A stretch of DNA of 36,092 nt from positions 1 to 36,092 of IMG/VR virus record IMGVR_UViG_3300037585_000519; one strand, 5' to 3'. The position numbers were made by a program, and so were the translations under genes. Position 1 is the stretch's first letter, and each line of letters begins with the position of its first letter. Under the pieces are notes generated by a model. It was not told the origin of the DNA, did no database searches, and saw only the letters and a program-made list of their open reading frames with translations. Source of the stretch: a virus. Positions 7,452-34,283 of this stretch are shown piece after piece.

Positions 7452-7477
7452 TATTTAATATTTTATAAAATTTTATT

Positions 7478-8641: not shown

Positions 8642-8660
8642 CTTAAAAAAATTATAAATT

Positions 8661-12819: not shown

Positions 12820-15800
12820 ATGCCTGAAATTAAACATGTATTCCAATCCGGAAAAATGAACAAGGACATAGACGAAAGACTTGTTCAAAATGGTGAATAT
12901 AGGGATGCTTTAAATATACAAGTTAGAACAACGGACGCTAACTCCAGTGGGGTTGGTGACGCTGGCACTGCTCAAAATATAAAAGGTAATAAATTTATCG
13001 CAAGTGGTGTTACTTACACGAAGAGTTATAAAGATGATGATAACTCTGGTAGTAAAGATTACACTAGAATAATTGGAAGTGTCGCAGACGAGGCTAATGA
13101 TCGGGCTTTCTTTTTTGTCGCGGACCCACTACCATTTGACGGTATACATCATGGTGTTCCATATTCTGATATAGTAGCAGAAAGCCTTAATGATGATGGA
13201 TCAACTCGTCTTGGTTACTCGCTTAGACAATGGAAAGATAGTATATTTGAAATAAACTATAATCCGCCAGTGGGTAACACTCAAAATCACGATGCTATAT
13301 TTACAGATGTTTATATGATCACAGCTACTTACTCTGATATGGTAGGTCCTGAGAATACTAGTGATTCGACTGATTACGCTTACCTGACTGTGCGTAACCA
13401 ACTATATGGCGCTCGTAATATAAGAATAGGTATGTCACTCCACGCTTGGGATACTAATGGTAATCATTTATTATGGCATTCTAGAACGTTACCAGATGGA
13501 TCTGTAATTAAAGAGGAGGGGGTTAAAGTTATTAATATAGTAGAAGACCCAAATAATGCAACAAATAACTTAATAGTTTTAGCAGAAAAACAAACAGAGG
13601 ATTTAGAAGAAAAATGCGTTGCTATGAAGTTTTTTAGTGAAGAAAGAGTATTAGAGTTTGACTACTATAAGAGATCAGAAAATACTTTACAAAGAATTAA
13701 AAATACACTAACTGGTATTAATATTCTAGACGATATGTTATTTTGGACCGATGGCGTTCATGAACCAAAAAAAATTAATATTGAAAGATCTAGAGAAGGA
13801 ACTGTAAATGATACTATTCACACACAACTTTACGTAACACATCCTGTAACTGGAGACATTGTTATAGTAACAGACGATGATATAGAACCTAACTTATTAT
13901 CAGCTGATATTAAACAAGAAAATATTACGGTAATAAAACAAGCACCTACATCAGCGCCTAAATTAAAATTAGCAACTAGTGATAGAGCTAGTGACACTAC
14001 ATTCGAAATAGACCACAATTTTGTGAGTGATACTTTATTAGTGCCTACTGAAGGTTCTATAATAAATGATATAACATTTCCCTCTACTATAGACTGTAGA
14101 GTAGATGATGTATTTAAATTTACAGCTGACAACCTTTTTGCTAACGAACCTATGGTAGTAAGGGGTAAAGTTATTAGCGTTGAAGAATGGCCAGATGTAG
14201 TGATTAGACTATCATTTGTTAGTGATGATGTGGTAGAGATAAATCCTTTAGATTGGGAAGTTGAGTTAGAGCAAAGAAAACCTTTATTTGAAACTAAATT
14301 CGGGAGATTTGGTTATAGATATAAATATGATGATGGAGAATATTCTTCTTTCTCGCCTTGGTCTGAACTTGCTTTTTTACCTGGAGATTTTGAGTATACT
14401 CCTAGTAAAGGTTATAATAAAGCTATGACTAGTAATGTTAGAAGTCTAATAATAACTGATTTTGTACCTAATGATGTAAGTGGTATTATCAACGGTGGGG
14501 AAAATATAAATCCAATAGTATCTATAAAACCTAATGACATCAAAGAGATTGATATACTTTGGAAAACTACGGATAATCAAAACGTTTATGTAGTAAAATC
14601 CATAACTAGAGCAAAAGATATAGAATGGACAGCTGATGAAAACGGTTCTATGTCAGTAACCTCTGAAATGATACATAAAGTACTACCAGCGAATCAAACT
14701 CTTAGAGGTTGGGATAATGTACCTAGAAATGCAATAGCTCAAGAGATGACGGCTAATAGATTAATATATGGTAACTATATTCAAGGTTATGATATACTAA
14801 TACCATTTGGATTAAAGCAATCTATAAAATCTAATAACATACAATTTCCTAGTCCTAAAAAATCTATAAAATCAAGTAGAAATTATAAATTCGGCGCAGT
14901 ATTCGGAGATAAATATGGTAGAGAAACACCTGTTATAGCTAGTGGTTATAGAAACCCATTAGATGAATTTAGCGAAAACGAATTACAAGAAAATATAACT
15001 GGTGATTTAAATGTACCAAAAAATTTATCATCATCAAGTAATAAATTTCAATTAGAACAAAGTTGGAGTGGTAGTGAGCCACCAGATTGGATGAATTATA
15101 TAAAGTATTTTGTAAAAGAAACGTCTAATGAATATTACAATCTAATAATGGATAGATGGTACGATGCGGAGGACGGTAATGTTTGGGTAGCTTTTCCGTC
15201 TGTTGATAGAAATAAAATTAGTGAAGAAACATTTTTAATATTAAAAAATGGTCATGGTAATCAAAACCCTGTTACTGAGGAAGCTAGATATAAAGTTATA
15301 GCAATTGAAAATGAAGCCCCAGATTATATAAAGACTGTAAACAATGATTTTGATTTAATTAAAATATCTAGAGATAAAGTTTATAATGACTTAGTAGGTA
15401 ACATAAGTGATGCTATACCGGATCAATTAATTGCTAAAAAAACAATAAAATTAGAATCCGCAGAGTGGGATGAAACTGCCCCTGAAGTTAAAGATTTTAA
15501 AGGTATTGCTAAAGTTAGGATTGTAGGCACATATAATAGCGCTTCGGAAGGAGCTGTTAGTGAATATAGCCCTTGGAGAAATATAACAAAGATAATAAAT
15601 AAAGACGATGACAGGGGTGTGGTTCTTAGAGAGGCATTTGAAGAGGTTGATGTTAATATGTACCAAAAATTAATTTTAAAACTGTCAACTCCTTCAGAGC
15701 TAATAGACAACAAAGCTGATGCTGATGATACAGCGAGTATTCATTACATACAATACAGTTTAGAGTTTAGAGACGCTATTGTAGAAAACAAACCTCAATT

Positions 15801-18800
15801 TGATGGTAGATTTTTTGTTAAATTAGAAAAAGATTCAACATTAGAAACTTCAGTATTAGGCAGTCAAGTTAGTTACGAAGTAAAAAATACTTATAAAGTA
15901 GCTTATATAGCCGCAAGGCAAGTTAACCCTGCTGATAGTGATGAAGATGAAGTAGAGAGCGTGGGTACTTATTCTGGGGTTAATTGGAGCACGTACACAG
16001 ATGGTGGAGCGAATATATTTACTACAAATGAAATAGACACTATAGGTGGTACTGGAGACAATGATGTGTTAAATTACAATAGTCTTGATAATTTAACCGG
16101 TGATCTTCCAGCGGTTCCAAGTGCTGGTGTGACGGTAAATAGTATTAACGAAGACGCTAATGACACGCATTCTATTTACGGAGATGACAAAAATCAAGTA
16201 GTATCTTTATTTGGACCTGGTGATCATAGTTCAAATAACTTTCAAACACAGCAATTTTGGAATTGGTGGTGGGATCAAGGTAGTAACTTACTTGGTGAGG
16301 GTAATAACACAGCTAGAGATACAAATATATTTATAGATGAGGCACCAGCTTATAGCGGTTTTAGTTTGATTAAGGAAATAACGGGGCCAGATGATAATCA
16401 GTATAAAAGACAAGTACTACAAGCTTTGGGCTCAGGAGGACAACCTATTAGTCACCTTATAGATAATAATATATACGGACCTTATCCGGGAACAGGAAAT
16501 GGTGACAGTACTGAAGCTACGTATCCAAATCCAGCTTACAATCTTGAATGGAGTGAGAGTAGTGGTGAGAATCAAAACTGGTTACCATCAGGATTAAGTC
16601 AGGGTAAGGCTACAACAGATGGCCATTTAGGTCAGTTTACATTTTCCGTTATTAAAGATGATTGGGATAGTATTTCTACAGATTCTTTATTTAAATCAGA
16701 TATGACAACACCTGGTACGATATTTACATTTGCGAATGATCCTAACCCAGGAAATCGTTATAAAATAATAAATTACCAATTAACAACTAATTGGCTAGAT
16801 GGATTTGAAGATTTCGGTGAATTTTCAGGAATGAACCTAGATATAGAAAGTACGAACTTCTCTGCTACAGATGATCCCTTGAAAAAAAGATACTCAATAA
16901 TAACTAGATTTTGTAGATTAGATGATAATAATAACGAATTAATAAATGAAGGAATAGACACCACACAGTGGGACCCAAGAGGTGATGTTAGGCACGATGG
17001 TATAGGTAGTTTAGAAATACAAGTATTAGCACAAGTTGGTAATTTTGATTTATCAGATAAATCATTGGCTACTAATGCGGCTTGTTGGGAAACGGAACCG
17101 AAAGAAGATGTTGGTTTAGATATATATTACGAGGCGAGTGAAGGGATTCCTTTAAGACTAGATGATAAAAAAGACTTAACAATTTTTACAAAACCAGGTA
17201 AAAAATCAAATGCTAGTCATATTGAGATACATAGATCTTATAAAAAGATAGAATCATCTACTGTGCCTTTTTTAAATAGAATTATAGGTAATGATGGTGT
17301 TCACTTGCAATACCAACAATACGAATATATAGGTGGTGTATTAACACCTGGTTATAACGTAGATTTTAAAAGTGCTGCTATAGGAGACATGATTCATTTT
17401 ATTCATAGATCTAATCCTTATAGTAGTGGCGTGGTAGTTAAATCTAAAATAATAGATTTTTATGATACTCTAAGTTTACCTGGGAATACGGAGATACCTA
17501 TTCCATCACCAAGGGGTTCTTTTACCGCAACACCACAACCTGGTGTTCAAGATGGTTTTACGCAATTATATAATGCTCCAACAATTTTTGAAGGTGAAAG
17601 CTTGTTAGGTGCTCAAATACTTAGTCCTAATTTAGCTGGGGTTAGCATTGTTACTGATATTGGTAATGGTTATATTACGATAACTGGTAAATATGCTTTT
17701 CCTGAAGGCTTTAATCCACTAACTGAACCAACACCACCTGCTAATTTTGAGTTTTATATTAATAAAGGATGGTATAAAATAGATACGAATGTATGGAAAT
17801 ATCCTGTAGAATTAGGGTGGTTTAATTGCTACTCTTTTGGTAATGGTGTGGAATCTGATAGAATACAAGATGATTTCAATGCGCCGACTATTGACAACGG
17901 CGTAAAGGTGTCATCTACGTTTTTAAATTATGGAGAAGAGCATATAGGTAGTGGATTGATATATTCTGGATTATATAATTCCATGTCGAGTGTTAATGAC
18001 TTGAATGAGTTCAACATGGCAGAAAAAATAACAAAAAATCTAAATCCAATATATGGTTCGATACAGGCATTGAAAACTGCTGAAAGAAATTTAACTGTAC
18101 TCGCTGAAGATAAAATCATAAAAGTTTTAGCAAACAAAGATGCTATATATAACGCTGATGGTAATCCTCAATTAACAGCAACAAATAGAGTATTGGGAGA
18201 CGCAAATCCTTATTCAGGTGATTATGGTATATCTAAGAATCCAGAATCACTAGCATGGGATCAATATAGATTATATTTTACGGATAAACAAAGAGGAGCT
18301 GTATTAAGACTGTCCAACGATGGATTAACGCCTATATCAGAAATTGGTATGAGCGCATATTTTAGAGACCGTATGAAAAAAAGCGACTCTATGTTAGGTA
18401 CATTTGATACTATTAGTGGCGAGTATAATTTAACTCTTGATTCAGGTTGGCAATGGAATTCTACTATTGATCCACCAGTAACAATATCTTTTAACGAAAG
18501 ATCTAAAGGTTGGACTAGCTTTAAATCTTTTATACCTTCAACTGGTTTATCAGTTAATGGTAGATATCTAACAACTCCAGGTAGTGATGGTTATGATGGA
18601 ATGAAGTTAGCCCCATGGGAACATTATGATGATAATATTGAAAGAAATAATTTTTATAATACACAGTATGGATCTGAGATAGAAGTTGTATTTAATGATC
18701 AACCTAGTATTATTAAATCTTTTAAAACTATTAATTACGAAGGTACTCAATCTAAAGTAAATAAGTACACTGGTTCAACTGAGTCATATGGAGCAGATGC

Positions 18801-19122
18801 TAGTAATTTATCCGTTAGTGTTAACGACGGTGAATATTATAATTTAATAGATAAAAAAGGATGGTGGGTAGAATCATTTACAACAGACCTGCAAACGGGT
18901 ACAGTTCCTGAATTTATAAATAAAGAAAACAAATGGTTTAATAAAATAAATGGAAAAACAACCACGTTGGAAAACTTGGACACAAGCGAATTCTCCGTTC
19001 AAGGTTTAGGGTTTGCTGCTGTTGTGACCTCTACGCCTCCAGTAGAGGCTGATGTAGTAATAACTGATACATTTGATGGTTTAACGAGTACGTATGGTGA
19101 TGATGATTTGACTAATGATTAA
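12820..19122 (+). CDS. Giant tail nozzle (muzzle) protein
   Basis: 2100 residues. The N-terminus reads GKMNKDIDERLVQNGEYRDA at about 11-30, a signature I associate with the tail tubular/nozzle proteins of marine and Bacteroidota phages (functional equivalent of T7 gp12). The body is almost entirely beta, with many Asp, Asn, Gly and Thr turns. The C-terminal 400 residues include NPESLAWDQYRLYFTDKQRG and FNERSKGWTSFKSFI, typical of beta-propeller nozzle blades that read out a trajectory of repeated strands. Expected role: the DNA exit tube at the tail tip. T7 gp12 is about 800 residues, so over 1000 residues are extra, probably inserted beta domains around residues 1000-1600. No enzymatic motif is seen in it. 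Confidence 0.75.
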   Translation: MPEIKHVFQSGKMNKDIDERLVQNGEYRDALNIQVRTTDANSSGVGDAGTAQNIKGNKFIASGVTYTKSYKDDDNSGSKDYTRIIGSVADEANDRAFFFVADPLPFDGIHHGVPYSDIVAESLNDDGSTRLGYSLRQWKDSIFEINYNPPVGNTQNHDAIFTDVYMITATYSDMVGPENTSDSTDYAYLTVRNQLYGARNIRIGMSLHAWDTNGNHLLWHSRTLPDGSVIKEEGVKVINIVEDPNNATNNLIVLAEKQTEDLEEKCVAMKFFSEERVLEFDYYKRSENTLQRIKNTLTGINILDDMLFWTDGVHEPKKINIERSREGTVNDTIHTQLYVTHPVTGDIVIVTDDDIEPNLLSADIKQENITVIKQAPTSAPKLKLATSDRASDTTFEIDHNFVSDTLLVPTEGSIINDITFPSTIDCRVDDVFKFTADNLFANEPMVVRGKVISVEEWPDVVIRLSFVSDDVVEINPLDWEVELEQRKPLFETKFGRFGYRYKYDDGEYSSFSPWSELAFLPGDFEYTPSKGYNKAMTSNVRSLIITDFVPNDVSGIINGGENINPIVSIKPNDIKEIDILWKTTDNQNVYVVKSITRAKDIEWTADENGSMSVTSEMIHKVLPANQTLRGWDNVPRNAIAQEMTANRLIYGNYIQGYDILIPFGLKQSIKSNNIQFPSPKKSIKSSRNYKFGAVFGDKYGRETPVIASGYRNPLDEFSENELQENITGDLNVPKNLSSSSNKFQLEQSWSGSEPPDWMNYIKYFVKETSNEYYNLIMDRWYDAEDGNVWVAFPSVDRNKISEETFLILKNGHGNQNPVTEEARYKVIAIENEAPDYIKTVNNDFDLIKISRDKVYNDLVGNISDAIPDQLIAKKTIKLESAEWDETAPEVKDFKGIAKVRIVGTYNSASEGAVSEYSPWRNITKIINKDDDRGVVLREAFEEVDVNMYQKLILKLSTPSELIDNKADADDTASIHYIQYSLEFRDAIVENKPQFDGRFFVKLEKDSTLETSVLGSQVSYEVKNTYKVAYIAARQVNPADSDEDEVESVGTYSGVNWSTYTDGGANIFTTNEIDTIGGTGDNDVLNYNSLDNLTGDLPAVPSAGVTVNSINEDANDTHSIYGDDKNQVVSLFGPGDHSSNNFQTQQFWNWWWDQGSNLLGEGNNTARDTNIFIDEAPAYSGFSLIKEITGPDDNQYKRQVLQALGSGGQPISHLIDNNIYGPYPGTGNGDSTEATYPNPAYNLEWSESSGENQNWLPSGLSQGKATTDGHLGQFTFSVIKDDWDSISTDSLFKSDMTTPGTIFTFANDPNPGNRYKIINYQLTTNWLDGFEDFGEFSGMNLDIESTNFSATDDPLKKRYSIITRFCRLDDNNNELINEGIDTTQWDPRGDVRHDGIGSLEIQVLAQVGNFDLSDKSLATNAACWETEPKEDVGLDIYYEASEGIPLRLDDKKDLTIFTKPGKKSNASHIEIHRSYKKIESSTVPFLNRIIGNDGVHLQYQQYEYIGGVLTPGYNVDFKSAAIGDMIHFIHRSNPYSSGVVVKSKIIDFYDTLSLPGNTEIPIPSPRGSFTATPQPGVQDGFTQLYNAPTIFEGESLLGAQILSPNLAGVSIVTDIGNGYITITGKYAFPEGFNPLTEPTPPANFEFYINKGWYKIDTNVWKYPVELGWFNCYSFGNGVESDRIQDDFNAPTIDNGVKVSSTFLNYGEEHIGSGLIYSGLYNSMSSVNDLNEFNMAEKITKNLNPIYGSIQALKTAERNLTVLAEDKIIKVLANKDAIYNADGNPQLTATNRVLGDANPYSGDYGISKNPESLAWDQYRLYFTDKQRGAVLRLSNDGLTPISEIGMSAYFRDRMKKSDSMLGTFDTISGEYNLTLDSGWQWNSTIDPPVTISFNERSKGWTSFKSFIPSTGLSVNGRYLTTPGSDGYDGMKLAPWEHYDDNIERNNFYNTQYGSEIEVVFNDQPSIIKSFKTINYEGTQSKVNKYTGSTESYGADASNLSVSVNDGEYYNLIDKKGWWVESFTTDLQTGTVPEFINKENKWFNKINGKTTTLENLDTSEFSVQGLGFAAVVTSTPPVEADVVITDTFDGLTSTYGDDDLTND

Positions 19123-21436: not shown

Positions 21437-22354
21437 ATGGCAACAATTAAAAGACACGAAGATTCACCTTTTAAAATATGGATGCAGTTAGCTGGTGTAG
21501 CTGGCGCCGTGTTTAAGGGTATATCAGCTCATAAAACCGCTAAAAAAGCAGAAGGTTTAGAAGCTGACGCAAAGTTAGCAAGAGATACATTTAGAGAGGA
21601 TCTAGCAAATATGAATATGACTAATCCATTTGAAGGTATGCAAAACCAATTTGCTGGTATGGAAAATACTATGGAAGATTTAACTGTTAATCAGAAAGAA
21701 GCAGAATTTGCATCTCAACAATTTGCACAAAGTCAATCTAACATTATGTCTGGATTAAGAGGGGCAGCTGGTGGTAGTGGTATAGCGGCACTAGCGCAAC
21801 AACTAGCTCAACAAGGCCAAATAGCTGCACAGAAATCAGCGGCTGGTATTGGTCAACAAGAGGCAGGTAATCAAATGGCTATGGCTAAAGAAGCTAGTAG
21901 TATACAAACAAGAGAAAGACAAGGTGCCACGGATGTTGCTAGACAAATAGCTGCTGGCGAACAAACGGCGCAAATGCAGAATATGCAAAAAACAAAAGCT
22001 TTACTTCAAGATGCTTCTTCAGAATACCAGCACTATCAAAAACAAGCTGCTGAGGCAAATGCTATGAAAAATGAAGCTATTGGACAAGCTCTCCCACAGG
22101 CTATCCCATTGATACCTAAGATAGGGGAGGCCCTTGGTTTATCTGATAGAAGATTTAAAAAGAATATTAAATTAATAGGTAAATCTGCTAGTGGTCTAAA
22201 TATATATGCTTTTGAGTATATAAACGAACTATTAGGAAAAGGAATTTATCAAGGTGTCATGTCTGATGAGGTACCAGTTAACGCTGTTATAAATAATGGT
22301 GAGTATGATATAGTAGATTACTCTAAACTAGACGTAGAATTTAAACAAATATAA
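21437..22354 (+). CDS. Putative internal core/ejection protein with S74-like C-terminus
   Basis: 305 residues. Residues about 13-30 (MQLAGVAGAVFKGISAH) form a short hydrophobic helix. Residues 35-225 are one long Ala/Gln/Met/Glu-rich helical region (for example GLRGAAGGSGIAALAQQLAQ), the composition of T7 gp14-type core proteins that are ejected first and cross the outer membrane. From 235 to the end, SDRRFKKNIKLIGKSASGLN, YAFEYIN and YQGVMSDEVP resemble the intramolecular chaperone of phage tail spikes (Peptidase_S74 type), in shortened form. It is preceded by the second promoter-like element and begins the probable ejection operon. The S74-like match is by eye, and the ejection role is inferred from gene order. 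Confidence 0.6.
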   Translation: MATIKRHEDSPFKIWMQLAGVAGAVFKGISAHKTAKKAEGLEADAKLARDTFREDLANMNMTNPFEGMQNQFAGMENTMEDLTVNQKEAEFASQQFAQSQSNIMSGLRGAAGGSGIAALAQQLAQQGQIAAQKSAAGIGQQEAGNQMAMAKEASSIQTRERQGATDVARQIAAGEQTAQMQNMQKTKALLQDASSEYQHYQKQAAEANAMKNEAIGQALPQAIPLIPKIGEALGLSDRRFKKNIKLIGKSASGLNIYAFEYINELLGKGIYQGVMSDEVPVNAVINNGEYDIVDYSKLDVEFKQI

Positions 22355-22356
22355 TT

Positions 22357-23358
22357 ATGCCAGAAGAGTATATTCCACAAAGTCAACAACAAGTTGATCC
22401 TACACAAGCATATGGCGACCGAGGAGCACCTCAAGCAGTGCCAACTTCAAATGAAGATTTCTTTAGTTTAATGGATTCTAAGATAAATGAAGAGCCAGCT
22501 TTTCCAGAAGACCAAATGAGTGCATTACGTGAAAAGTTTGAAGGAATGAAAGCTGATTATGCTAATGGAGACAAAGAAGATCAAGCTATGCTAGAAGCAG
22601 ATGTCGTACAGACAGGTACTAGATTACAAACAGCTGAACAATTTAAAGTTAATCTAGCTAGCATGCTAAAAACTGGTTCAGGCATAGGACATAATCCTAC
22701 TGAAAAGTTAGCAGAATATACCGATGACATGACTAATATAGTTAATGGTAATAATGAGGTTACATACGATGGTAACGTTCCAGGATATGAACTACACGAT
22801 GGCTGGACCTCTATGGATGATATAGAGAAATTAGTAAAAAATAGATACGTTGATGAAGCATCAAAAAATATGTTCAAAATGATGGTTCAAGATCAGCAGA
22901 AGTTAGCCTCAACTATTCAAACTGGTGAGAACGCGGAATTTAACTTCCAAAAAGCGTATTCTGATGTGAAATCAAAAATAGTTGAAATGGGTGATATTAG
23001 ATCTTTGGCTACTGATAAAATATTTGGCAATAGAGTTTTTAAAGATGACTTATTATCTGCTATACAAAGTAATACATATAAAGATCTAGGATTTGATGAG
23101 GAGCAAATTAAACTAATGGATCCAACGCAAGAAGACGGTATAACCCCTGAAGACGCAACGAATATAGTATCCAATATATTAAAAGATGAAAATATATTAC
23201 AAGAGTATTTAGTTGATTATTATACCAAAGCTATGGAACAAAATTATTATGATAATCTAAACCAAGATGTTAGAAGAGAAATGCAGTGGAAAAACCAACA
23301 AACACCCCAATCTAAGCAGTCTGGAAGTATTATGATACCTCAGTCTACAAGATCTTAG
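22357..23358 (+). CDS. Putative internal virion protein (333 aa)
   Basis: Unrecognised. The N-terminus (residues 1-30) is a Gln/Pro-rich linker (YIPQSQQQVDPTQAYG). The body is helical and acidic with many Met and Asp residues (MSALREKFEGMKADYANG, then MFKMMVQDQQKLAST). The C-terminus returns to a Gln/Ser/Pro-rich, flexible tail. There is no membrane helix. It lies 2 bases after the gp14-like gene and 38 bases before the giant gene. In T7-like gene order this is the position of gp15, the middle ejection protein, so a core or ejection component is the best guess. The EDGITPEDATNIV stretch at about 255-267 resembles an acidic loop but not a full EF-hand. Confidence 0.55.
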   Translation: MPEEYIPQSQQQVDPTQAYGDRGAPQAVPTSNEDFFSLMDSKINEEPAFPEDQMSALREKFEGMKADYANGDKEDQAMLEADVVQTGTRLQTAEQFKVNLASMLKTGSGIGHNPTEKLAEYTDDMTNIVNGNNEVTYDGNVPGYELHDGWTSMDDIEKLVKNRYVDEASKNMFKMMVQDQQKLASTIQTGENAEFNFQKAYSDVKSKIVEMGDIRSLATDKIFGNRVFKDDLLSAIQSNTYKDLGFDEEQIKLMDPTQEDGITPEDATNIVSNILKDENILQEYLVDYYTKAMEQNYYDNLNQDVRREMQWKNQQTPQSKQSGSIMIPQSTRS

Positions 23359-23396: not shown

Positions 23397-26300
23397 ATGG
23401 AAGAAAAAAAACTATATATACACAACGGTGTAGAGCACGAGATAACAGCTGAAGAAGAGGCGGATTGGCTATTAGAGCATGATGGTGCTACACTGAAAAA
23501 TGATACTAAAGAAATATCCGTTGAAAATACGTTAAATGAAACCGGTGAAGAAAATATAAACACTGATGTCGTTAAAGAAGAAGAAGAAGAAATTGAAGAA
23601 GATAAAAACGAAGAAATCGAAGACGGTACCCAAGAGATAAATCAATCTCAAGATAATCTTGATATCCAAGATGATCTAATTCAAAAAGAATTTACAGATA
23701 AAGAAATAATAGAACAAGACAAGCGTTCAAGAAGCGAAAGCTACACAGGTCCGTTAGCTCATGAAGTTATAGGTGGTGATCATAATACTTATTTAAATAG
23801 TAGGCCAGATATAATGTTACACGCGGGCAATGCTGATGATTGGTTTAAACACGCTATCGAAAATGGGCTACCGTTAGATGGTAAAGATGGACGTGCAGAC
23901 GAGTTTATATTAAACATGGTTTATAACAAAGGTTATGGTTTTAATCCAACCGACCCGCGTAATGCTGTTCAAAAAAATGTGGATCCTGATACCAACGAAA
24001 TACTATGGAGCGTAAAGATACCTAGTAATTCTAGAGAAACTACTAAAAAATTAATTGAAACCCATAAAAAAAATAAACTAGAAAATACAGATCTTCAAGA
24101 TAAGATTAAAGAACAAAGAGAGGAAAAAGAATGGGACAATATTAAAAAAAGTACAAAAGAAGCTGCAGATTGGAAAAGTAATTATTTTGAAGAAAAAATA
24201 CAATTAGAAAATACTTATGAGCCCATAAATATAAAAAGTAGTATAAAAGGAAATTTAGCAGAAACTGAATTTGGAAATGTTGATGAAATACTAACGTATG
24301 ATAACGCTAAGCAGTGGTTTGATAATAGGAGTTACTTTGTTGACGAATATTTTAAAGATCAAAAAGGTGCCGATATCGCTATGTTTAAAAGTAGGGAAGA
24401 TGGATCAAAAATTGCACTTTATAATGATGATGAATTTTATAACAGACAGGATGAGGTTAAAGAAAAAATTATGTCTGGTAAGTACGGATATAATCCGCAT
24501 GAAGATAGATTATATTTATTATCAGAAGATGATCAAGTCAGCGTTAGCAAGGAGGATAAACTATTAGGGTCTAAAGAATATGGTGAGTCTTTATCTTTGA
24601 GGCAGATGAACAATGACATGCTTAAGTCCAATCCTAATTACGAATCTTTTGTAGATAATCCGGGTTCAAGTCCTAGAATAGTAAGTCCTCAATTTTTTAC
24701 TTTATCTGAAACAGAGACTATAAAGAAGCTTCAACAACATTATTTTAAACATGGCTTTCAATTTCAGCAAGATAATTGGAAGGGTTCTGCGGTTAAAATT
24801 ATAAAACCCGGTGGTGATAAAGATGGAATTGAGGGGAGGGATTATATTGTAGTTCCAACTAATTACGCAAGTAAGACTAAATCTGGCGCTATAGAAAATG
24901 CTAATAAAGTTAATGATTGGATAGCAGAGCATGCTACATACGGCACCTCGGAATTAGATATTGTTCTAGAAAGGGTTAGGGAAGATATAGGCGCGGAAGT
25001 TGTGAACGGTAAAATTGAAATGGAGAGAGTGCATAACGCCGTTAACTATCTCGATGAATTAAAAGAAGCTTGGGGAATGTCTAGCAAAACAGACCATGAG
25101 GTATTAGATTTGTATGCTCAGATTAACGCTCAATATTTAGATGATAAAGGTACTTTTCACATCTTAGATGGTAAAATGTTAGGATGGAGAAACGGCTTGA
25201 TATACGACGAAATAGGTAGTAGCAAAGCTGCTGAACTTTGGAAATTACTTCCAGATGAATTCAAAACGGGAAGTAAATCCAAAATGACGCAGTATCGTAG
25301 GGAACTAGCTTTAGTAGTAGAGGGCCAAAACCAGTATATTGATCAGATAGTTCTAAGTGCATACATAAAACAACATCATAAGTATAAAGGTGACGAAGCC
25401 GCTTTCTATAAAGATCATGACACTGACACCGAGGATGGAAGAAAGGCTTTAAATAAAGCAATGGGGAGTTCTGACTTCAGATATCTTAAAAAGAGAATAC
25501 TCACTGATTCAAAAGGGGTGAGTAATCCAAAATTAGCACAAAAATATAGAGATATATTTAAACAAATAGATTTTGGTATAGCGGATAATTTTGGTAGACA
25601 ACTTGCTAATGAAACTCTTTATATTGAAGATTTCGAAGAAGAATTAAGAAGTGATATAATATTTCTTTCAGATAATTGGTGGAATAAAGCTGATATACAA
25701 AAAAAATTATTTAGTGAATCTAAAGTTGATTTAAAAGAAGTAAAGGAAGAAAACGCTAATCTTATAGTTGATATTAAAAATACTAGTGTAAAAATAGAAG
25801 ATACTATAAATGAATTAACGCCTATAATGACTTCTATTGATACTATTCAAAAAGATACAGAAAGATTTGCTATGATATCGGCTATAGCAAATGAATACGG
25901 GGCTACTAATATGAATAACTTAGCAACTAATGAGGCTGCTATGATGAGGATAGCTAATGTAGATCCTGAGTTTGCTAAGGAACTATTAACATATAATGTT
26001 AAATTAAATGAAATAATTGCTTTAGAAAAACTTTATAGGGATAAGAACACCGAAATTGAAGAGGGATCTTTAAATGAATCTGAGTTAATGTTGCTTTCTG
26101 ATGGTTTAAAACGAAATCATGAACCAGGTACTGTTTTTGTAAAAGGAGCTTGGAATAGTACTGTTGATGCCGTTCAAATGCTGACTTTAGATTTAGCAGA
26201 TTTATATTTAAATATAAGTTTAGATATAGCTGGTGGGAAAAATAATCTAAGAGGTAGAGATGATAAATTAATAAAAGCGTACATACAGGCGAGTGATTAC

Positions 26301-29300
26301 TTAGAACAAGAAAGTGCTAGATGGGACGAAAAGCAAGCTGATTACAGATCAACTTGGAGAAAAAGTAAAGATTTTAATAGTATATCTAGTTTAAGTGACG
26401 TAGGTGATTGGTTAACTCACTTTGCTGGTGAACAAGCTGCTAATACAGTTTTGGTGGTAGCAACAGGTGGTTACGCTCCGATTATTTTATCTACTCAATC
26501 TGGAACAGGTAAATGGAGAGAACTTACTACAGAGAGAAATTTATACTTTCAAACAGGTGGGGAGCAGGGTCAAGATCACGGTGGTTGGAGTATGTATGGT
26601 AACGTTGCTTTAACAGCATTAAGTGAATATGCTTTTGAAAAGTTTATTACTCTACCTATTGTTAATAACGCAAAAAAAGCTAGAAATTTAGGTAAGTTTG
26701 GATTTGATAATGGTTTAAAAACAAATATATTTGACACTAAAAGTATAGCCTTAAGCATGGGTATTTATACTGGTGATACATTCCTTGAGGGTCTTGGTGA
26801 AGGATTAACTCAATTCACTAGTAACTGGGCTGATATATATCTTAGTGGTATGAAAGATGTTCATATTTATGATGGCGTGGATGAGTCTTTTGCTAGCGGT
26901 ATAGTGATGACAAATGCTTATAAGTCTCCATCAATGGCGAACAAAATGATGAGTCCATTTAGAACTAAAGATTACAACCAGAAGGTGGGTGAAAATGAAA
27001 CTAAAATACTAAACCTAATTAATCAAGTTAAAAATAGGTTTGATGAAAATGGTTTCACATCAGCTAGCGCTAACACTACGACTACTTTTAAAAATGGAGA
27101 AGTAGTTAGCCAACCAATTAGTGAAACAAATGCTACTGACGCTCCCGCTTATGAAATAAATGGAAAAAGTGTTACTAAGGAAGAAATGGTAAAGTTTGTT
27201 TTAGACGGTGGACTTAAAGGAGAAGATGGAAGTTTTAGTGTAAGTAATGATATACAAGTTCAAGACTTGATAAATGCTGACCCTGATTCCAAAAAGCAAT
27301 TAGCTCAAATAATAGAGTTAACAGACAAAAATTATGAGTTATTACAGAATGAAATAAAAAGGATTGATGTTTTATCTAATGCCGAGAAAAAAGAATTAAT
27401 CACTTTAGATAAAGAAGATTTCTTGGCTAGAAAGATGGGTGACGATATAATGCTAAATGACAAATTAAGCGATAAGGAGAAAGAGCTTCAAATGGCTAAA
27501 ATTCAGGAAGAGGTTGATGCAAGGGCTGATCAAAGAGATGCGATATTAAATAAATATACTCAAGCAGATATAGATAAAAAACATCAAGAAATATTACAAA
27601 CCATGAACGAAACTTTGAAAGAAGCTGAGTTAATGGGGGCTCCAAAAGTTGTTATTAAAACTTTAAATCAAAAAGATTATGCGGAAGAAGTAAAAAAATA
27701 TAAAGAAAATAATGAAGGTTTAGATAGCAAGGAATTAGAAAACATTGCTTCTGAAAAAGAAGGTATTGTACAAGGATTAAATGAAATAATCAATGACAAG
27801 AATTCTACACCAGAAGAGATACAAGACGCTAGGGAAAAATTAAAAAATCCAGAGTCGGTTGTTAATATAGCTAGTAATATATTAAACAATAGCGATTATG
27901 GTGTTATGCAGCCTAAGTTTGATAAAGATGGTAATATATCTGACATGGCTATATTAATGAATAGAGACGCAGCTATTGAAGATGGAAGATTCAACGAATT
28001 AAGTCATGAGTTCGTACATGCTACTTTTGCGAATACTTTAAAATTTGATCCTAAGGCGAGGGAGGTTTTAGGTGATCAGCTACAAGAAATATTAACAGGT
28101 GATGATGTAGTTTTTTCGTCTAGAAGAAAAGCTAATGAATTTAATAAAAGGGTAAACTCATATGATCCTAATCTTAGAGGTGAAGAAGGTCTAGCAATAA
28201 TTTCTCAAATGATGATGGATGGGGATGTTAAATTTAAAACTAGTGCTTTACAAAAATCTAAAGATGTTTTTAGAAGATACTCTCAAGATTATCTTAACGC
28301 ACCTATAGCATTTAATAAAAGTAATGATATTAAAAACTTTTTAAAAGATTATCATTATTCTATAAAAAATAACAAACCAAGTAAAGCTATAGCTAAAATG
28401 TTGGCTAAAGGAGCTAATGGCAAAATGTTTAAAAATGCCAAAACTCCAGCCGATAGAAAAAACATGAGCATGTTCAGTGAGTCTTCTGCTGTGTGGATGA
28501 AAAATAACCCGAAGATAGTAAATAAATATGATCAGCACACTAGAAACGAAGATGGTTCTAAAAAATATAAAAACAAAAAAGAGTGGAAAGAAAAAGGTGA
28601 AGCTGATAATGTTGCTGTATGGCAATATATTATGGACTCTGGTAAAGGCTCTTTAGATAGTAGGATATTAGAAGAACAAGGTGGTTTTGATCCTAAAGGA
28701 TTACCTTTTGAAGTACAGCAAGATTATATGAGAAAAGTAAAAACCGAACTTCAAATGAGGTGGTTAAAAAACTTTGATCCTAAAGAAAATAATAGTGCAG
28801 CAGGTTATTTGTTTGGAAAAAATGGTATATTATACTGGGCAAAACAAACTGTTCAAAAAGATTATTTTGACAAAGAAGGTGGTACAGATAAACGTTCTTT
28901 AGATAGGCAAACATCTGATGGTCAAAGTTACGCTGATGTTATAGAAGCTGAAAAAGAATCTATATATGATGAGATAGATAATGCAGATTTATCTGTTACA
29001 GCTAAAAAGGCTAATAAAGATATGTTAGATGATCTTATAATGGTAATGGATCTATTTGGTTTACCTAATAAAGTTAAAAAAGCTGTTGAGAACAACGTGA
29101 AAGAAACATACATACCTTTAGATATTATAACTGATCCTAATGCTAAATTTAGTACCTACAAAAATATAAAAAAATTATTAGTAGAAAAAGAGTTTGACCC
29201 TAAAGTACTAAATCCAAAAACAGGTAAGCAAGCAAAATCCGAAAAAGCTGTTATTCCAACTGGGCCTTTATTTGAAACATTAAATGCTATATCTTCTGAT

Positions 29301-32300
29301 TTTGGAGTTGATCCACTTAGAATATTAGCTAATCAAAACTTAGATGATAATCAAAGAAAATTAGCGCAAGGATGGATATTTGATAAGGCCGTAAATGAAG
29401 ATGGTACACTTAATAATAACGTAATAAACGCTTTACCTGAAGGAGCTGATAGAAGTGGTAGAGCAACTGGCCTTTCTAAAAAACTACTTGAGGCATTTTA
29501 TATTAAAGGAGGTAGAGCTGAATTTGCTGGAGGAGCTACAGCATCTGGACTTGCTACACAAACAAAAAGAACTAATATAACTAAAGAAGAATTTTTAAAT
29601 ACGTTCGGGATAAATCCAGATGGTTCTTTACAACCTGGAACAGATGCTGATGGTGCCATTAATCAATATGTAGTACAAGTAGCCACGTTAGCCGCTATTC
29701 AAGAGGTAACAATGAATACTATAGAAAATGAATTAGCTCAAGCTAATATTATAGCTAGACTTAACGAGGGTAAAGGGGAGCAGGTATTTAGTAAAAGATT
29801 TGAACAGGTAGAAAACTTTATTCAAGATGATTTTCAAGGTGGTGAGTTTATAGGTAAAGATCACGTTTTAAAAATACATGGTTTACCTAAAACTTTTAAA
29901 ATAAAATCCAAAAAAGATATAAAAACGTATATTCATAATTTAAAAACCTCTGTACTACCATTATTACCAAAAGAGGCTTGGTTTGGACCTAGAGAAGGAA
30001 CCGCATTTACTAGTAATGCTAGGCATTATTTTGATTCTTCAAGTAATCCTTTGTGGCCAGTGTTAATGAAAGAAATACAAAAATTAAAAAACGATAAATC
30101 AATAAAATACGGAAAGCCTATACCTGGTGTAAAAGCAAGTGAAATATGGTCACTTAGAAATCAATTTAGTAGTTTGTTTAAAAACCCTGAAACATTAAGA
30201 AATAACAAGGAGAAAATAAAAAAGTTTAATAATAATGTAGGTGCTATACATAAAGCTCTTTGGGTGAGAATAAATGAAGCTATAAAAAAAGATAGAACTA
30301 TTGCTCCGCATATAGCACATTATTTAGGATTAGTTGCTAATGACACTAAGAACTGGCATAAACTAGGGGCGCAAGCCGTGGGGTTTTCTAAAAAAATAAC
30401 TGGAGCTAGATACGAATTAGAGCATGCAATGCCCGCTACTAGTGCTTATTTGTATTTATTAAATTCTTCTTTAGCTCCTGATATAGATTTTAATACTGCA
30501 TATGATTTAGTTATTGATAACTATAAGTTAATAGCGTTAGATAAAGCTATGGACACTAAGTTGAGAGATGCTAGAACTTTAAGTGGGTTTAGTTTACAAA
30601 GAAGAATGCCTGATAACTGGAGCGTTGTGGATGGAAAATTTTGGCAAAGGTATTTTAACAATATAGTAGAAGCTATAGACGGTGGAATAGATCCTAATTC
30701 TATAGAAATGCTTGATGGTAGAACTATGGCTGAAACGTTTAATATTAACGCTAGTGGTGATATAAGAATAGCTGAATCGTTTTCTAAAAGAAAAGCAAAA
30801 GAAACTATAAACGACGCTTTTAGTGCTAAGATAAGTAACGCTGTAAATAGTACAATAAAAGGAATGTCTACCTTTGATTTTGATGATACATTGGCTAGAA
30901 CTAAATCAGGTATTAGATATACTATACCAAATAATACTGGCAAACCAATGCCTGGAAAGAAAGTTATATTCTTAGCTGGTAGTGCTGGTAGTGGTAAATC
31001 AAACGTTGTAAAACAATTAGGTTTAGAAGCACAAGGATTTAAGATGGTTAATCAAGATATATCATTAGAATGGTTAGCTAAAAATAGTGGATTACCTACA
31101 GATATGAGAGATTTTACACCTGAGCAGGCTAGCAAGTGGGGAGAGTTACAATGGGAGGCTAGGGACATAGCACAGCGTAAAGCGACTAAATTTAAGGGTA
31201 GAGGTGACGGTGTTGTTGTAGATGGTACTGGGGCTAGTACTATATCAATGTCTACTCAAGTGCAAAAATATAAAGATGCTGGTTACGACGTTCAAATGTT
31301 ATTCGTAGAAAGCTCTTTAGAAACAGCATTAGAAAGAAATAAAGCTAGACAAGAAAGATCATTAAAAGATTTTATAGTTGAGCGTAATTGGAAAGCTGTT
31401 CAAAAAAATAAAAAAGCTTTTAAAGAAGAGTTTGGTAATAATTTTGCAGAAGTAAATACCAATAAATTAAAACAAGGAGATCCAATGCCTAAAACTCTTG
31501 TAAATAAAATAAATGATTTTACCACAGGTTATATTAAAGGTAGGTTAACAGCTGAAGAGTTTGCCAATAAAGGTGATAATTTATTACAGCAAGGTGCTGA
31601 ATTTGATTTTTCAGAATTTAATAAAGTTGTTGATGGAACACCAGGGCCGTTACTTCAAAAAGCTAGAAATAGAGCTGAAAAATATGGTACTAAAGATATG
31701 TTTGTTTTAACAGCTAGGCCACAAGCCTCTGCTTTTGCTATACAGCAATTCTTAAAAGGCCAAGGGTTAGATATACCAATAAAAAATATAACTGGTTTAG
31801 CTAATAGCACTGGTAACGCTAAAGCTCAATGGATGTTAGAAAAATTTGCAGAAGGATATAATGATATGTACTTTGTTGACGACGCTTTGCAAAATGTTAA
31901 AGCTGTTAAAAAAGTATTAGATCAATTAGACATCAAGTCTAACGTCGTCCAAGCATTTAGTAAAAGAATAAATGATTCTAACTTAGAATTTAATAAAATT
32001 ATCGAACGTAGAAAAGGAGTTAAGGCTGAAAAAGTTTTTTCTTCAGCTGAGGCAAGGAAAAGAGGGTCTCAACCTAATATTGCTAGATTTATAAAAAGTC
32101 TTTATATACCACCTTCTGCTGAGGACTTTAAAGGATTATTATATTATTTCTTAGGTAAAGGAAAACAAGGTGATGCTGATATGAGATTTTTTGCTGATAA
32201 CTTATTGACCCCTTTTGCTAAAGGAATTAAAGCTTGGAATTCTTATAAGCAAAACATGGTTAATGATTATAAGGCTTTAAAAAAAGAATTCCCTAAAGTT

Positions 32301-34283
32301 AAAAAGAATTTAAATAAAAAAATACCAGGAACAAGTTTTACAAATGACACAGCTGTGAGGGTTTACTTGTGGAGCAAAGCTGGTTTTGATATACCAGGTA
32401 TATCTAAATCTTTGCAACAAACCTTAGTTAATCACGTAAATAACAATTCAGATATAAAATCTTTTGCAGAGAGCTTATCTATTATAACTAAAAGAAAAGA
32501 TGGATATATTAAGCCTAATGAAAACTGGATGATGGAGGCTATACCATCAGATTTAAGAAATGTTGTAGATAAAATTGGTAGAAAAGAATTCTTAGAAGAA
32601 TGGATAGAAAATAAAAATATAATATTTTCTCCAGAAAACTTAAATAAAGTAGAAGCTTTATATGGTGGTAGATTTTTAGAGTCATTAGAAGACATATTAT
32701 ATCGTATGGAAAATGGTGGCAATAGATCACGAGGTAAGGACAGCGATGTTAATTGGTTTACTAATTGGATAAATGGTTCTGTTGGCGCTATTATGTTCTT
32801 TAATATGAGATCAGCTGTATTACAGACTATATCTACTGTTAACTTTATTAATTGGTCAGATAATAATATGTTTAAAGCATCCGCTGCTTTTGCTAATCAA
32901 CCTCAATTTTGGAAAGACTTTGTGAAACTGTTTAATTCTGATCAATTAAAACAAAGAAGAGGTGGATTACAAACGGATGTATCAGCATCAGAGTTAACTA
33001 AAACCTTTGCTGAAAAAGGATATAGTCCTCAGACTGTTATAAATCATTTACTTCAATTTGGTTTTAAACCCACACAACTTGCAGATAGTTTTGCTATTGC
33101 CTTTGGTGGAGCTACGTTTTATAGAAATAGATACAATAAGTATATAAAAGAAGGTATGTCTAAGTCCGCGGCTCAGGATCAAACAATGCTAGACTTTCAA
33201 GAGATAGCTGAGGAAACACAACAATCGTCAAGAGAAGATTTAATATCACAACAACAAGCAAGTGTATTAGGTAGAATAGTACTAGCTTTCCAAAACGTTA
33301 CAATGCAGTACGGTAGATTAACTAAAAAATCTTTGTCAGACTTAATTAACGGTAGGGGTGATTGGAAAACTAATGTATCTAAAATAGCTTACTATGGTAT
33401 GGTACAAAATATAGTTTTCTCAGCTTTACAAAATGCTTTAGCGTTTTTAATATGGGGCGATGAGGAAGATGAGTTGATAGAGGATAAAACAACTAGAACT
33501 TTAAATAGCACGTTAGATTCTTTCTTAAGAGGTACTGGTTTATATGGAGCGTTAGCATCAACTCTTAAGAACACAGTCGTGCAATGGGAAAACCAAAAAG
33601 ATAAAGAATGGGGTAAAGAACGAATAGAAAAAATAGCTCTTGAGGTTGTGAACCTTTCTCCACCTATTGGAAGTAAGGTTAGGAAAATAGTTAATGCTTA
33701 TTATGCAGATGCTTGGAACGAGGGGGTGTCAGAAGAATTAGGTTGGAGAATTGAAAATCCTAAATTAACTATGAGCGCAAATATCATAGAGGCTTTATTT
33801 AACGTCCCAATAGCTAGAATACAAAATAAAGCTAATAATTTAGAAGAAGCTATAACAGGTAACCATGAGACGTGGAAAAGAGTTTTATTAGCTCTTGGGT
33901 GGAGTAGATGGGATTTGGGTATTAAAGATGAAGAACTAGAAGAGGCTAAAGATGAAGCAAAAATAAAAAATCAAGAAAAGAAAAAAGAAGAGAAAAAAAT
34001 AGAAAAAGAAAAAGAAAAGGAAATTGAAGAAAAAGAAAAAGAAGAGAAAGGAATTAAAACTGTTCAATGCTCTGGCGTTGGATCTAGTGGTCAAAGATGT
34101 GGTAATACTACTGAGACAGCAGAAAAAACTTGGAAGTGTTATCATCATATGGATTTTGAAGATGGTATGGATAGAGATGGTGATGGAATCAAAGAATATA
34201 GATGTACGGCTATAAAAAGTAATGGTGATAGATGCAAGAACAAAACTGAGAATGAGAGCAAAAAATGTTATGCTCACCAATAA
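23397..34283 (+). CDS. Giant multidomain (polyvalent) virion/ejection protein
   Basis: 3628 residues, nearly a third of the window. In order: acidic low-complexity N-terminus (1-110); hydrophobic segment at about 1012-1033 and a FLEGLGEGLTQF motif at 1129-1140 in a membrane-prone region; HEFVH at 1537-1541 with E1596/E1597 downstream, a zincin metallopeptidase pattern; FDPKENN at 1793-1799 and SLDRQTSDG at 1834-1842, reminiscent of sigma-70 regions 2 and 3; HAD motif I DFDDT at 2494-2498; P-loop GSAGSGKS at 2528-2535 with D2554, VVVDGTG (D2609) and arginines 2647, 2651, 2654; HAD motif II T2772, Lys 2809, motif IV D2828-D2829; SVLGRIVLAFQN at 3289-3300, like PLxRFG/LPD38 tails; Lys/Glu stalk 3514-3555; and two Cys3His motifs (3558-3584, 3603-3627). 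By position it matches the T7 gp16 ejection protein. Domain calls are from motifs; the ejection role is inferred. Confidence 0.8.
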   Translation: MEEKKLYIHNGVEHEITAEEEADWLLEHDGATLKNDTKEISVENTLNETGEENINTDVVKEEEEEIEEDKNEEIEDGTQEINQSQDNLDIQDDLIQKEFTDKEIIEQDKRSRSESYTGPLAHEVIGGDHNTYLNSRPDIMLHAGNADDWFKHAIENGLPLDGKDGRADEFILNMVYNKGYGFNPTDPRNAVQKNVDPDTNEILWSVKIPSNSRETTKKLIETHKKNKLENTDLQDKIKEQREEKEWDNIKKSTKEAADWKSNYFEEKIQLENTYEPINIKSSIKGNLAETEFGNVDEILTYDNAKQWFDNRSYFVDEYFKDQKGADIAMFKSREDGSKIALYNDDEFYNRQDEVKEKIMSGKYGYNPHEDRLYLLSEDDQVSVSKEDKLLGSKEYGESLSLRQMNNDMLKSNPNYESFVDNPGSSPRIVSPQFFTLSETETIKKLQQHYFKHGFQFQQDNWKGSAVKIIKPGGDKDGIEGRDYIVVPTNYASKTKSGAIENANKVNDWIAEHATYGTSELDIVLERVREDIGAEVVNGKIEMERVHNAVNYLDELKEAWGMSSKTDHEVLDLYAQINAQYLDDKGTFHILDGKMLGWRNGLIYDEIGSSKAAELWKLLPDEFKTGSKSKMTQYRRELALVVEGQNQYIDQIVLSAYIKQHHKYKGDEAAFYKDHDTDTEDGRKALNKAMGSSDFRYLKKRILTDSKGVSNPKLAQKYRDIFKQIDFGIADNFGRQLANETLYIEDFEEELRSDIIFLSDNWWNKADIQKKLFSESKVDLKEVKEENANLIVDIKNTSVKIEDTINELTPIMTSIDTIQKDTERFAMISAIANEYGATNMNNLATNEAAMMRIANVDPEFAKELLTYNVKLNEIIALEKLYRDKNTEIEEGSLNESELMLLSDGLKRNHEPGTVFVKGAWNSTVDAVQMLTLDLADLYLNISLDIAGGKNNLRGRDDKLIKAYIQASDYLEQESARWDEKQADYRSTWRKSKDFNSISSLSDVGDWLTHFAGEQAANTVLVVATGGYAPIILSTQSGTGKWRELTTERNLYFQTGGEQGQDHGGWSMYGNVALTALSEYAFEKFITLPIVNNAKKARNLGKFGFDNGLKTNIFDTKSIALSMGIYTGDTFLEGLGEGLTQFTSNWADIYLSGMKDVHIYDGVDESFASGIVMTNAYKSPSMANKMMSPFRTKDYNQKVGENETKILNLINQVKNRFDENGFTSASANTTTTFKNGEVVSQPISETNATDAPAYEINGKSVTKEEMVKFVLDGGLKGEDGSFSVSNDIQVQDLINADPDSKKQLAQIIELTDKNYELLQNEIKRIDVLSNAEKKELITLDKEDFLARKMGDDIMLNDKLSDKEKELQMAKIQEEVDARADQRDAILNKYTQADIDKKHQEILQTMNETLKEAELMGAPKVVIKTLNQKDYAEEVKKYKENNEGLDSKELENIASEKEGIVQGLNEIINDKNSTPEEIQDAREKLKNPESVVNIASNILNNSDYGVMQPKFDKDGNISDMAILMNRDAAIEDGRFNELSHEFVHATFANTLKFDPKAREVLGDQLQEILTGDDVVFSSRRKANEFNKRVNSYDPNLRGEEGLAIISQMMMDGDVKFKTSALQKSKDVFRRYSQDYLNAPIAFNKSNDIKNFLKDYHYSIKNNKPSKAIAKMLAKGANGKMFKNAKTPADRKNMSMFSESSAVWMKNNPKIVNKYDQHTRNEDGSKKYKNKKEWKEKGEADNVAVWQYIMDSGKGSLDSRILEEQGGFDPKGLPFEVQQDYMRKVKTELQMRWLKNFDPKENNSAAGYLFGKNGILYWAKQTVQKDYFDKEGGTDKRSLDRQTSDGQSYADVIEAEKESIYDEIDNADLSVTAKKANKDMLDDLIMVMDLFGLPNKVKKAVENNVKETYIPLDIITDPNAKFSTYKNIKKLLVEKEFDPKVLNPKTGKQAKSEKAVIPTGPLFETLNAISSDFGVDPLRILANQNLDDNQRKLAQGWIFDKAVNEDGTLNNNVINALPEGADRSGRATGLSKKLLEAFYIKGGRAEFAGGATASGLATQTKRTNITKEEFLNTFGINPDGSLQPGTDADGAINQYVVQVATLAAIQEVTMNTIENELAQANIIARLNEGKGEQVFSKRFEQVENFIQDDFQGGEFIGKDHVLKIHGLPKTFKIKSKKDIKTYIHNLKTSVLPLLPKEAWFGPREGTAFTSNARHYFDSSSNPLWPVLMKEIQKLKNDKSIKYGKPIPGVKASEIWSLRNQFSSLFKNPETLRNNKEKIKKFNNNVGAIHKALWVRINEAIKKDRTIAPHIAHYLGLVANDTKNWHKLGAQAVGFSKKITGARYELEHAMPATSAYLYLLNSSLAPDIDFNTAYDLVIDNYKLIALDKAMDTKLRDARTLSGFSLQRRMPDNWSVVDGKFWQRYFNNIVEAIDGGIDPNSIEMLDGRTMAETFNINASGDIRIAESFSKRKAKETINDAFSAKISNAVNSTIKGMSTFDFDDTLARTKSGIRYTIPNNTGKPMPGKKVIFLAGSAGSGKSNVVKQLGLEAQGFKMVNQDISLEWLAKNSGLPTDMRDFTPEQASKWGELQWEARDIAQRKATKFKGRGDGVVVDGTGASTISMSTQVQKYKDAGYDVQMLFVESSLETALERNKARQERSLKDFIVERNWKAVQKNKKAFKEEFGNNFAEVNTNKLKQGDPMPKTLVNKINDFTTGYIKGRLTAEEFANKGDNLLQQGAEFDFSEFNKVVDGTPGPLLQKARNRAEKYGTKDMFVLTARPQASAFAIQQFLKGQGLDIPIKNITGLANSTGNAKAQWMLEKFAEGYNDMYFVDDALQNVKAVKKVLDQLDIKSNVVQAFSKRINDSNLEFNKIIERRKGVKAEKVFSSAEARKRGSQPNIARFIKSLYIPPSAEDFKGLLYYFLGKGKQGDADMRFFADNLLTPFAKGIKAWNSYKQNMVNDYKALKKEFPKVKKNLNKKIPGTSFTNDTAVRVYLWSKAGFDIPGISKSLQQTLVNHVNNNSDIKSFAESLSIITKRKDGYIKPNENWMMEAIPSDLRNVVDKIGRKEFLEEWIENKNIIFSPENLNKVEALYGGRFLESLEDILYRMENGGNRSRGKDSDVNWFTNWINGSVGAIMFFNMRSAVLQTISTVNFINWSDNNMFKASAAFANQPQFWKDFVKLFNSDQLKQRRGGLQTDVSASELTKTFAEKGYSPQTVINHLLQFGFKPTQLADSFAIAFGGATFYRNRYNKYIKEGMSKSAAQDQTMLDFQEIAEETQQSSREDLISQQQASVLGRIVLAFQNVTMQYGRLTKKSLSDLINGRGDWKTNVSKIAYYGMVQNIVFSALQNALAFLIWGDEEDELIEDKTTRTLNSTLDSFLRGTGLYGALASTLKNTVVQWENQKDKEWGKERIEKIALEVVNLSPPIGSKVRKIVNAYYADAWNEGVSEELGWRIENPKLTMSANIIEALFNVPIARIQNKANNLEEAITGNHETWKRVLLALGWSRWDLGIKDEELEEAKDEAKIKNQEKKKEEKKIEKEKEKEIEEKEKEEKGIKTVQCSGVGSSGQRCGNTTETAEKTWKCYHHMDFEDGMDRDGDGIKEYRCTAIKSNGDRCKNKTENESKKCYAHQ

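Follow-up and report, generated by a model that had tools for sequence, protein, structure and literature searches.

The window analyzed here, the whole 36,092-nucleotide stretch of IMG/VR virus record IMGVR_UViG_3300037585_000519 (a 36-kb virus fragment with a GC content of about 33%), encodes a giant protein that is probably a polyvalent ejection (cargo) protein of a Bacteroidota podophage, for which we propose delivery, self-processing by a zincin domain and end healing by a HAD-kinase module. Polyvalent ejection proteins are an already known kind. The kinase domain nested in a HAD phosphatase domain, repeatedly gained or lost within a virion-type giant, is new; no description of it was found in the literature searched, which left most subscription journals outside its reach. 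A preliminary description made from the sequence alone had suggested a virion-borne polyvalent cargo with protease and end-processing activities, and this reading is on the whole well supported by the syntenic giants with MS/MS records, the shared core, the PolyVal-like C-terminus and the match to T4 polynucleotide kinase/phosphatase (PNKP).

Genome organization

Three proteins have matches among the PHROG head families: the terminase, the portal and the virion structural protein, the last being putatively the major capsid protein. The nearest named relatives of the head genes are found in MW202828 (51% for the portal), the Flavobacterium elemo phages (42%), Maribacter phage Panino and Cellulophaga phages of Pervagoviridae and Pachyviridae; the nearest kin of the window phage are all uncultured. 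One relative of the HAD domain comes from a Sphingobacteriales genome bin and another from a Maricaulis bin, and the host is probably a Bacteroidota bacterium. Directly before the terminase lies a co-chaperonin GroES-like gene (2005-2583; PHROG 13932, E 3e-14), which occupies the same place in cultured relatives.

The muzzle protein carries the crassvirus muzzle C-terminal domain and is related to its counterpart in the named relatives. It is followed by a 623-aa ORF (19133-21004), possibly encoding a host-recognition protein, for which Pfam, PHROGs and the block of the cultured relatives gave no significant match. Next comes a 128-aa ORF (21011-21397) whose resemblance to phi18:3 gp115 (E 3e-6) and to the muzzle-protein C-terminus of the relatives looks like a duplication of the muzzle-end domain. 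The 305-aa and 333-aa proteins come next, the latter with no detectable sequence match to phi40:1 gp100. The giant had been placed third in a block after the nozzle gene; it is the third of the 305-, 333- and 3628-aa trio but the fifth ORF after the muzzle gene. This gene order is that of phi38:1, phi40:1, phi18:3, elemoA and MW202828, where a giant follows the muzzle and small ejection-type genes, as in the window, and closes the structural block. As deposited, no gene of the block comes after the giant in phi38:1, phi40:1, phi18:3 and elemoA. In the window it is followed by a 468-aa ORF (34689-36092) without a family match that runs off the window end.

The reading frame of about 11 kb reported at the outset is confirmed as a single open frame from ATG to stop. 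With residues 2469-3301 as query, 299 related stretches were found in viral contigs, and the 80 retained are skewed toward the query's own domain make-up because two search peptides fall within the kinase. Homologues with both ends present, from dozens of viral contigs, are single proteins of about 2280-4130 aa, and the giant is therefore a genuine, conserved gene. An NCBIfam search gave no match, nor did PDB sequence searches with the C-terminal profile or the core as query. The features described below are collected in Table 1.

Table 1. Features of the structural gene block and of the giant protein in the window
Feature	Position	Strand	Basis
Terminase, portal (5043-7451), intervening ORF, virion structural protein/putative major capsid protein (8661-10139)	2812..10139	+	PHROG head families
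Muzzle (nozzle) protein, 2100 aa, with crAss_MUZ_C domain	12820..19122	+	domain match
305-aa protein, PHROG 4287 'DNA ejection protein'	21437..22354	+	PHROG match, profile
333-aa protein, position of phi40:1 gp100	22357..23358	+	gene position
Giant ORF, 3628 aa, probable polyvalent ejection/cargo protein	23397..34283	+	frame and homologues
Hypervariable N-terminal part, residues 1-959	23397..26273	+	relatives' alignment
Core common to MS/MS-detected virion giants, residues 960-1420	26274..27656	+	pairwise and profile matches
Gly-rich hydrophobic stretch inside core, residues 1014-1032	26436-26492	+	sequence
Zincin (HExxH + Glu) metallopeptidase-like domain, residues 1440-1700	27714..28496	+	conservation, predicted fold
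HEFVH, residues 1537-1541 (third ligand E1597 at 28185-28187)	28005..28019	+	motif, alignment
HAD phosphatase-like domain interrupted by kinase, residues 2485-2860	30849..31976	+	motifs, model
HAD motif I FDFDDT, residues 2493-2498	30873..30890	+	motif, alignment
Polynucleotide-kinase-type P-loop domain inside HAD, residues ~2517-2715 (borders approximate)	30945..31541	+	Pfam, PHROG, model
Kinase P-loop	30978-31001	+	motif
Kinase Asp2554	31056-31058	+	motif
HAD motif II TAR (T2772)	31710-31718	+	motif
HAD motif III K2809	31821-31823	+	motif
HAD motif IV DD, D2828/D2829	31878-31883	+	motif
Conserved all-helical (predicted) C-terminal part, residues 2860-3490	31974..33866	+	conservation, model
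Two Cys/His zinc-binding-like units, residues 3558-3628	34068..34280	+	motif

A core shared with virion proteins of cultured phages

The GenBank notes of phi40:1 gp101 and phi18:3 gp123, from which the MS/MS status of the Cellulophaga phage proteins was taken, read 'annotation based on experimental MS/MS proteomics analysis'. In pairwise comparisons, residues 975-1237 of the window giant matched gp101 of phi38:1 and phi40:1 (E 5e-6) and residues 984-1216 matched phi18:3 gp123 (E 7e-6). A profile of residues 960-1420, made solely from viral-contig relatives with phi40:1 and phi18:3 left out, found phi40:1 gp101 (8e-25), the elemoA giant (2.6e-22), phi18:3 gp123 (3e-19) and Panino (4e-11), the shuffled and reversed copies used as controls giving values no better than 0.6. 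The glycine-rich hydrophobic stretch within the core occurs as well in phi40:1 (370-391), elemoA (528-550) and Panino (148-174). The 305-aa neighbour of the giant matches by profile phi40:1 gp99 and phi18:3 gp120, both of them MS/MS virion proteins. Because the core profile finds giants recorded by MS/MS at the same gene position, the window giant is likely to be packaged in the virion.

The Cellulophaga giants recorded by MS/MS have no zincin, HAD or kinase domain, and their common part with the window giant is the core only. The protein might be mainly a structural ejection or channel protein similar to T7 gp16, with enzymes that are secondary or serve only in assembly, the zincin for example as a maturation protease. 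It agrees with this that the giants proven by MS/MS share the core and its hydrophobic segment and not the enzymes, those of phi38:1 and phi40:1 having neither HExxH, HAD nor P-loop kinase. Yet the enzyme active sites of the family are strictly conserved over deep divergence and must therefore be under selection, and we consider a mainly structural role improbable. Since a model of the core and zincin gave no significant match in a fold search of the PDB (best E 0.68), a channel or membrane function of the core is something that we infer. The top entry of that search, the cyanophage A4 pre-ejectosome, was too weak a match to be taken as a structural relative of the core.

The zincin domain

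At the composition of the protein, 0.04 HExxH motifs are expected by chance, and no relative whose sequence reaches across the region lacks the motif. An alignment of 67 sequences shows H1537, E1538, H1541 and E1597 without variation, and the predicted structure (mean pLDDT 74) contains a three-stranded sheet, the HExxH helix and a later Glu-bearing helix, without a significant match in the PDB. The same order of strands and helices is described by Iyer et al. 2017 (PMC5512222) for the peptidases of polyvalent proteins. The zincin motif noted earlier is thereby upheld, since its invariant residues go with a fitting predicted fold: judged from sequence and model, it is an intact gluzincin site of a putative metallopeptidase. 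The giant of elemoA has the same domain (E 6e-9), and that of MW202828 probably has it (E 6e-5).

A kinase domain nested in a HAD phosphatase domain

HAD motif I was found in 82 of 82 family sequences, and the T of motif II, the K of motif III and the DD of motif IV are invariant in 67. In one relative the Pfam family DUF2608, which we take to be a member of the HAD clan, scored above its cut-off. The kinase region (residues 2520-2685) matched AAA_33 (3e-11) and Zeta_toxin (2e-8) in Pfam and PHROG 505, polynucleotide kinase (1e-6). Its GxxGxGK P-loop, the NxD aspartate D2554 and R2647, R2651 and R2654 are largely conserved in the kinase-bearing members. The module thus has the parts of a PNKP: a P-loop kinase in which the Asp and the lid Arg are conserved, and a HAD phosphatase with motifs I to IV. 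The apparent absence of HAD motif I or of the P-loop in some relatives came from too strict a search pattern, both being present where expected.

Structure prediction, proposed in the preliminary description as a check on this region, came out in its favour. The best solved-structure match of the AlphaFold model of residues 2469-3490 (mean pLDDT 77) was T4 PNKP, with an alignment of 364 columns that exceeds the length of T4 PNKP itself, followed by Pnkp1 of the Pnkp1/Rnl/Hen1 complex and by the Cth PNK kinase (TM 0.74, rmsd 3.0); the global rmsd is poor (24 A) when HAD and kinase are aligned jointly to T4 PNKP. Taken alone, the kinase fold resembles zeta toxin and adenylate kinase too. The giant could be a virion-delivered effector with a zeta-toxin-like kinase directed at small molecules or peptidoglycan precursors and a HAD domain that is a nucleotidase, weakening the wall or changing host metabolism rather than mending the ends of nucleic acids. 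The Pfam Zeta_toxin match and the zeta toxins among the structure matches (3q8x, E 3e-4) speak for such an effector, as do the name of the nearest viral entry, UDP-N-acetylglucosamine kinase, and the report, in PMC5512222, of zeta-like kinases in polyvalent proteins as peptidoglycan effectors. Nevertheless, zeta toxin and the adenylate kinases rank below the PNK structures, polynucleotide kinases beating zeta in both E-value and TM-score among solved structures, the PHROG match is a polynucleotide kinase, and the pairing of a kinase with a HAD phosphatase is known from PNKP enzymes and not from zeta toxins. We therefore regard a zeta-like effector as unlikely and prefer a PNKP-like module.

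The HAD phosphatase and the P-loop kinase listed earlier are both present, but not as successive domains: the kinase lies within the HAD domain, and this nesting and its gain or loss between relatives had been overlooked. HAD motifs I and II are separated by 78-83 residues where the kinase is absent and by 278-286 where it is present, so that a cassette of about 200 residues occupies one fixed site inside the HAD domain. The stretch between motifs I and II is the place where HAD cap domains are inserted. A tree of the C-terminal part contains 37 members with the kinase and 44 without, and requires a minimum of six gains or losses; well-supported branches force every one of these six switches. 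In T4 PNKP and bacterial Pnkp the two domains stand one after another. Because the kinase of the window giant is inserted between motifs I and II, the module is described here as working like PNKP and is not filed as a classical PNKP.

About 31 viral contigs match across the entire kinase-containing stretch, and an unstudied viral database entry is 72% identical across a large part of the modelled region. Among the 50,697 phage records searched there were kinase-only or HAD-only relatives and no nested case. A polynucleotide kinase domain of this type also occurs in a 778-aa protein (L100, 2221-4557) of the Agrobacterium jumbo phage Atu_ph07; a fold and tblastn match, it was rejected as a nested case as no HAD motif was seen around the kinase. 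In the metagenomic phage LR756500 (462 kb), a HAD protein of 187 aa (L006, 5908-6471) stands alone; it resembles the HAD domain of the window and has no kinase.

The terminal regions and domains not found

Counted in blocks of 50 residues, the stretch 1-959 can be aligned in only 0-6 of 81 relatives, a number that reaches 12 by residue 1100, and residues ~300-950 have a weak match in the MW202828 giant (E 1e-6). A scan of 48 variable segments identified a GH108 muramidase in one relative (L075, a 3621-aa frame) and a PHROG endolysin match in one relative. The GH108 domain of L075 means that this ejection protein can also incorporate an enzyme that cuts the wall; the initial statement that there is no lytic transglycosylase holds for the window giant, which had no such Pfam match, but not as a rule against wall-cutting domains in the family. 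The variable N-terminus fits a polyvalent protein with exchanged N-terminal cargo, and the wall-cutting domains fit a need of some members to open peptidoglycan like that of T7 gp16.

Residues 2860-3490 are predicted to be all-helical and are conserved in nearly all relatives; their profile found no match among the cultured giants. The modelled region matched phage proteins annotated as LPD, ART-PolyVal, PolyVal or MuF (E 1e-6 to 1e-9). In Pfam, LPD14 was found below cut-off in three relatives, and no LPD domain was found in the window giant. The terminal zinc-type motifs pointed out before are real: the tail consists of two C..C..C..H units, present in 66 of 82 family members. The sigma-like stretch, by contrast, is to be dropped, as neither sigma region 2 nor region 4 was matched in Pfam even at E<=10.

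Could the giant instead be a virion RNA polymerase or transcription starter, like N4 gp50 or crassvirus gp47-50, that has diverged beyond recognition? Its genome position is similar to that of the DEV/N4 vRNAP, a 3398-aa giant ejection protein (PMC10925440), and N4 vRNAPs fused to zincins are mentioned in PMC5512222. However, no RNA polymerase or other polymerase family was matched in Pfam or PHROGs, no Rpb1-type domain was found in six relatives while 14 of 14 controls were positive, and the DFDD motif is part of the HAD fold in the model. We consider a polymerase highly improbable.

Comparison with known systems

Like the polyvalent phage proteins described by Iyer et al. 2017 (PMC5512222), the window giant is very large, carries unrelated enzyme domains on one chain (zincin, HAD and PNK-type kinase) with the zincin in a central place, and is encoded beside virion genes, the portal, muzzle and ejection genes lying upstream; its C-terminus structurally resembles PolyVal, LPD or MuF entries. 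It differs in its HAD domain: the words 'haloacid' and 'phosphatase' are absent from the main text of that paper, no HAD domain was found there, and among the zeta-like kinases described none was found nested in a phosphatase. With phi40:1 gp101, phi18:3 gp123 and the elemoA giant it shares the core and the place after the same ejection gene, and with elemoA also the zincin, which the two Cellulophaga giants do not have. All three, however, have neither HAD nor kinase, and their C-termini are not detectably related to that of the window giant.

T4 PseT and bacterial Pnkp, the best solved-structure matches, combine as the window giant does a kinase and a HAD phosphatase with conserved active-site motifs, but in the window the kinase sits between HAD motifs I and II and inside a virion-type giant. 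Compared by description, DEV gp71/N4 vRNAP and T7 gp14-15-16 likewise include a giant within an ejection trio, and extrusion of the ejection proteins has been proposed for DEV, T7 and P22 (PMC10925440); unlike them, the window giant has no detected polymerase or lytic transglycosylase. The cargo proteins gp45-gp50 of crAss001 (PMC10172136) likewise have their genes next to that of a muzzle protein ending in the crAss_MUZ_C domain, and they include large helical cargo stored in the capsid. The large cargo of crAss001 is, in contrast, an RNA polymerase, and no mention of a HAD-kinase was found in its description.

Proposed role of the HAD-kinase module

Several copies of the giant would be packed in the head, like crassvirus cargo, and would leave through the muzzle, either before the DNA or together with it, alongside the 305- and 333-aa ejection proteins. 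The hydrophobic core segment may then insert into the envelope, and the zincin may cut its own polypeptide, in the head or on arrival, and so free the domains. In the cytoplasm the HAD-kinase module would act as a polynucleotide kinase/3'-phosphatase that converts the 5'-OH and 3'-P ends made by nucleases on incoming DNA or cleaved tRNA into ligatable 5'-P/3'-OH ends, before phage gene expression; kinase-free members would retain the end-phosphatase step only. We put forward tentatively, with somewhat less than even confidence, that a virion-delivered nested PNKP fused to an ejection protein repairs nuclease-made ends of the incoming genome or of host tRNAs before expression, its kinase being a removable cassette at a fixed site.

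A ligase match of about 290 aa was found in 8 of 18 relative genomes, kinase-bearing and kinase-free alike. The two ligases checked (L171 and L173) are ATP-dependent DNA ligases, and the PF09414 'RNA ligase' matches were set aside, those checked being DNA ligases. No RtcB was found in the 18 relatives, and a search of the same genomes for Rnl1-type ligases was empty, as was its control. The presence of DNA ligase without RtcB makes end repair lean slightly to a DNA substrate, although a host RNA ligase could still serve RNA repair.

The action of polyvalent ejection proteins is predicted to fall in the first minutes of infection, before the phage has made any products from its own genes. Few of their activities are known, and end healing is a testable one. 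The family offers a natural comparison, the same site being found with and without the kinase, and its more distant relatives include culturable ones. As an enzyme architecture, a phosphatase with a kinase set inside it would be uncommon. A repair enzyme carried in the virion, if true, would let the phage counter host nucleases acting on DNA or tRNA before its genes are expressed.
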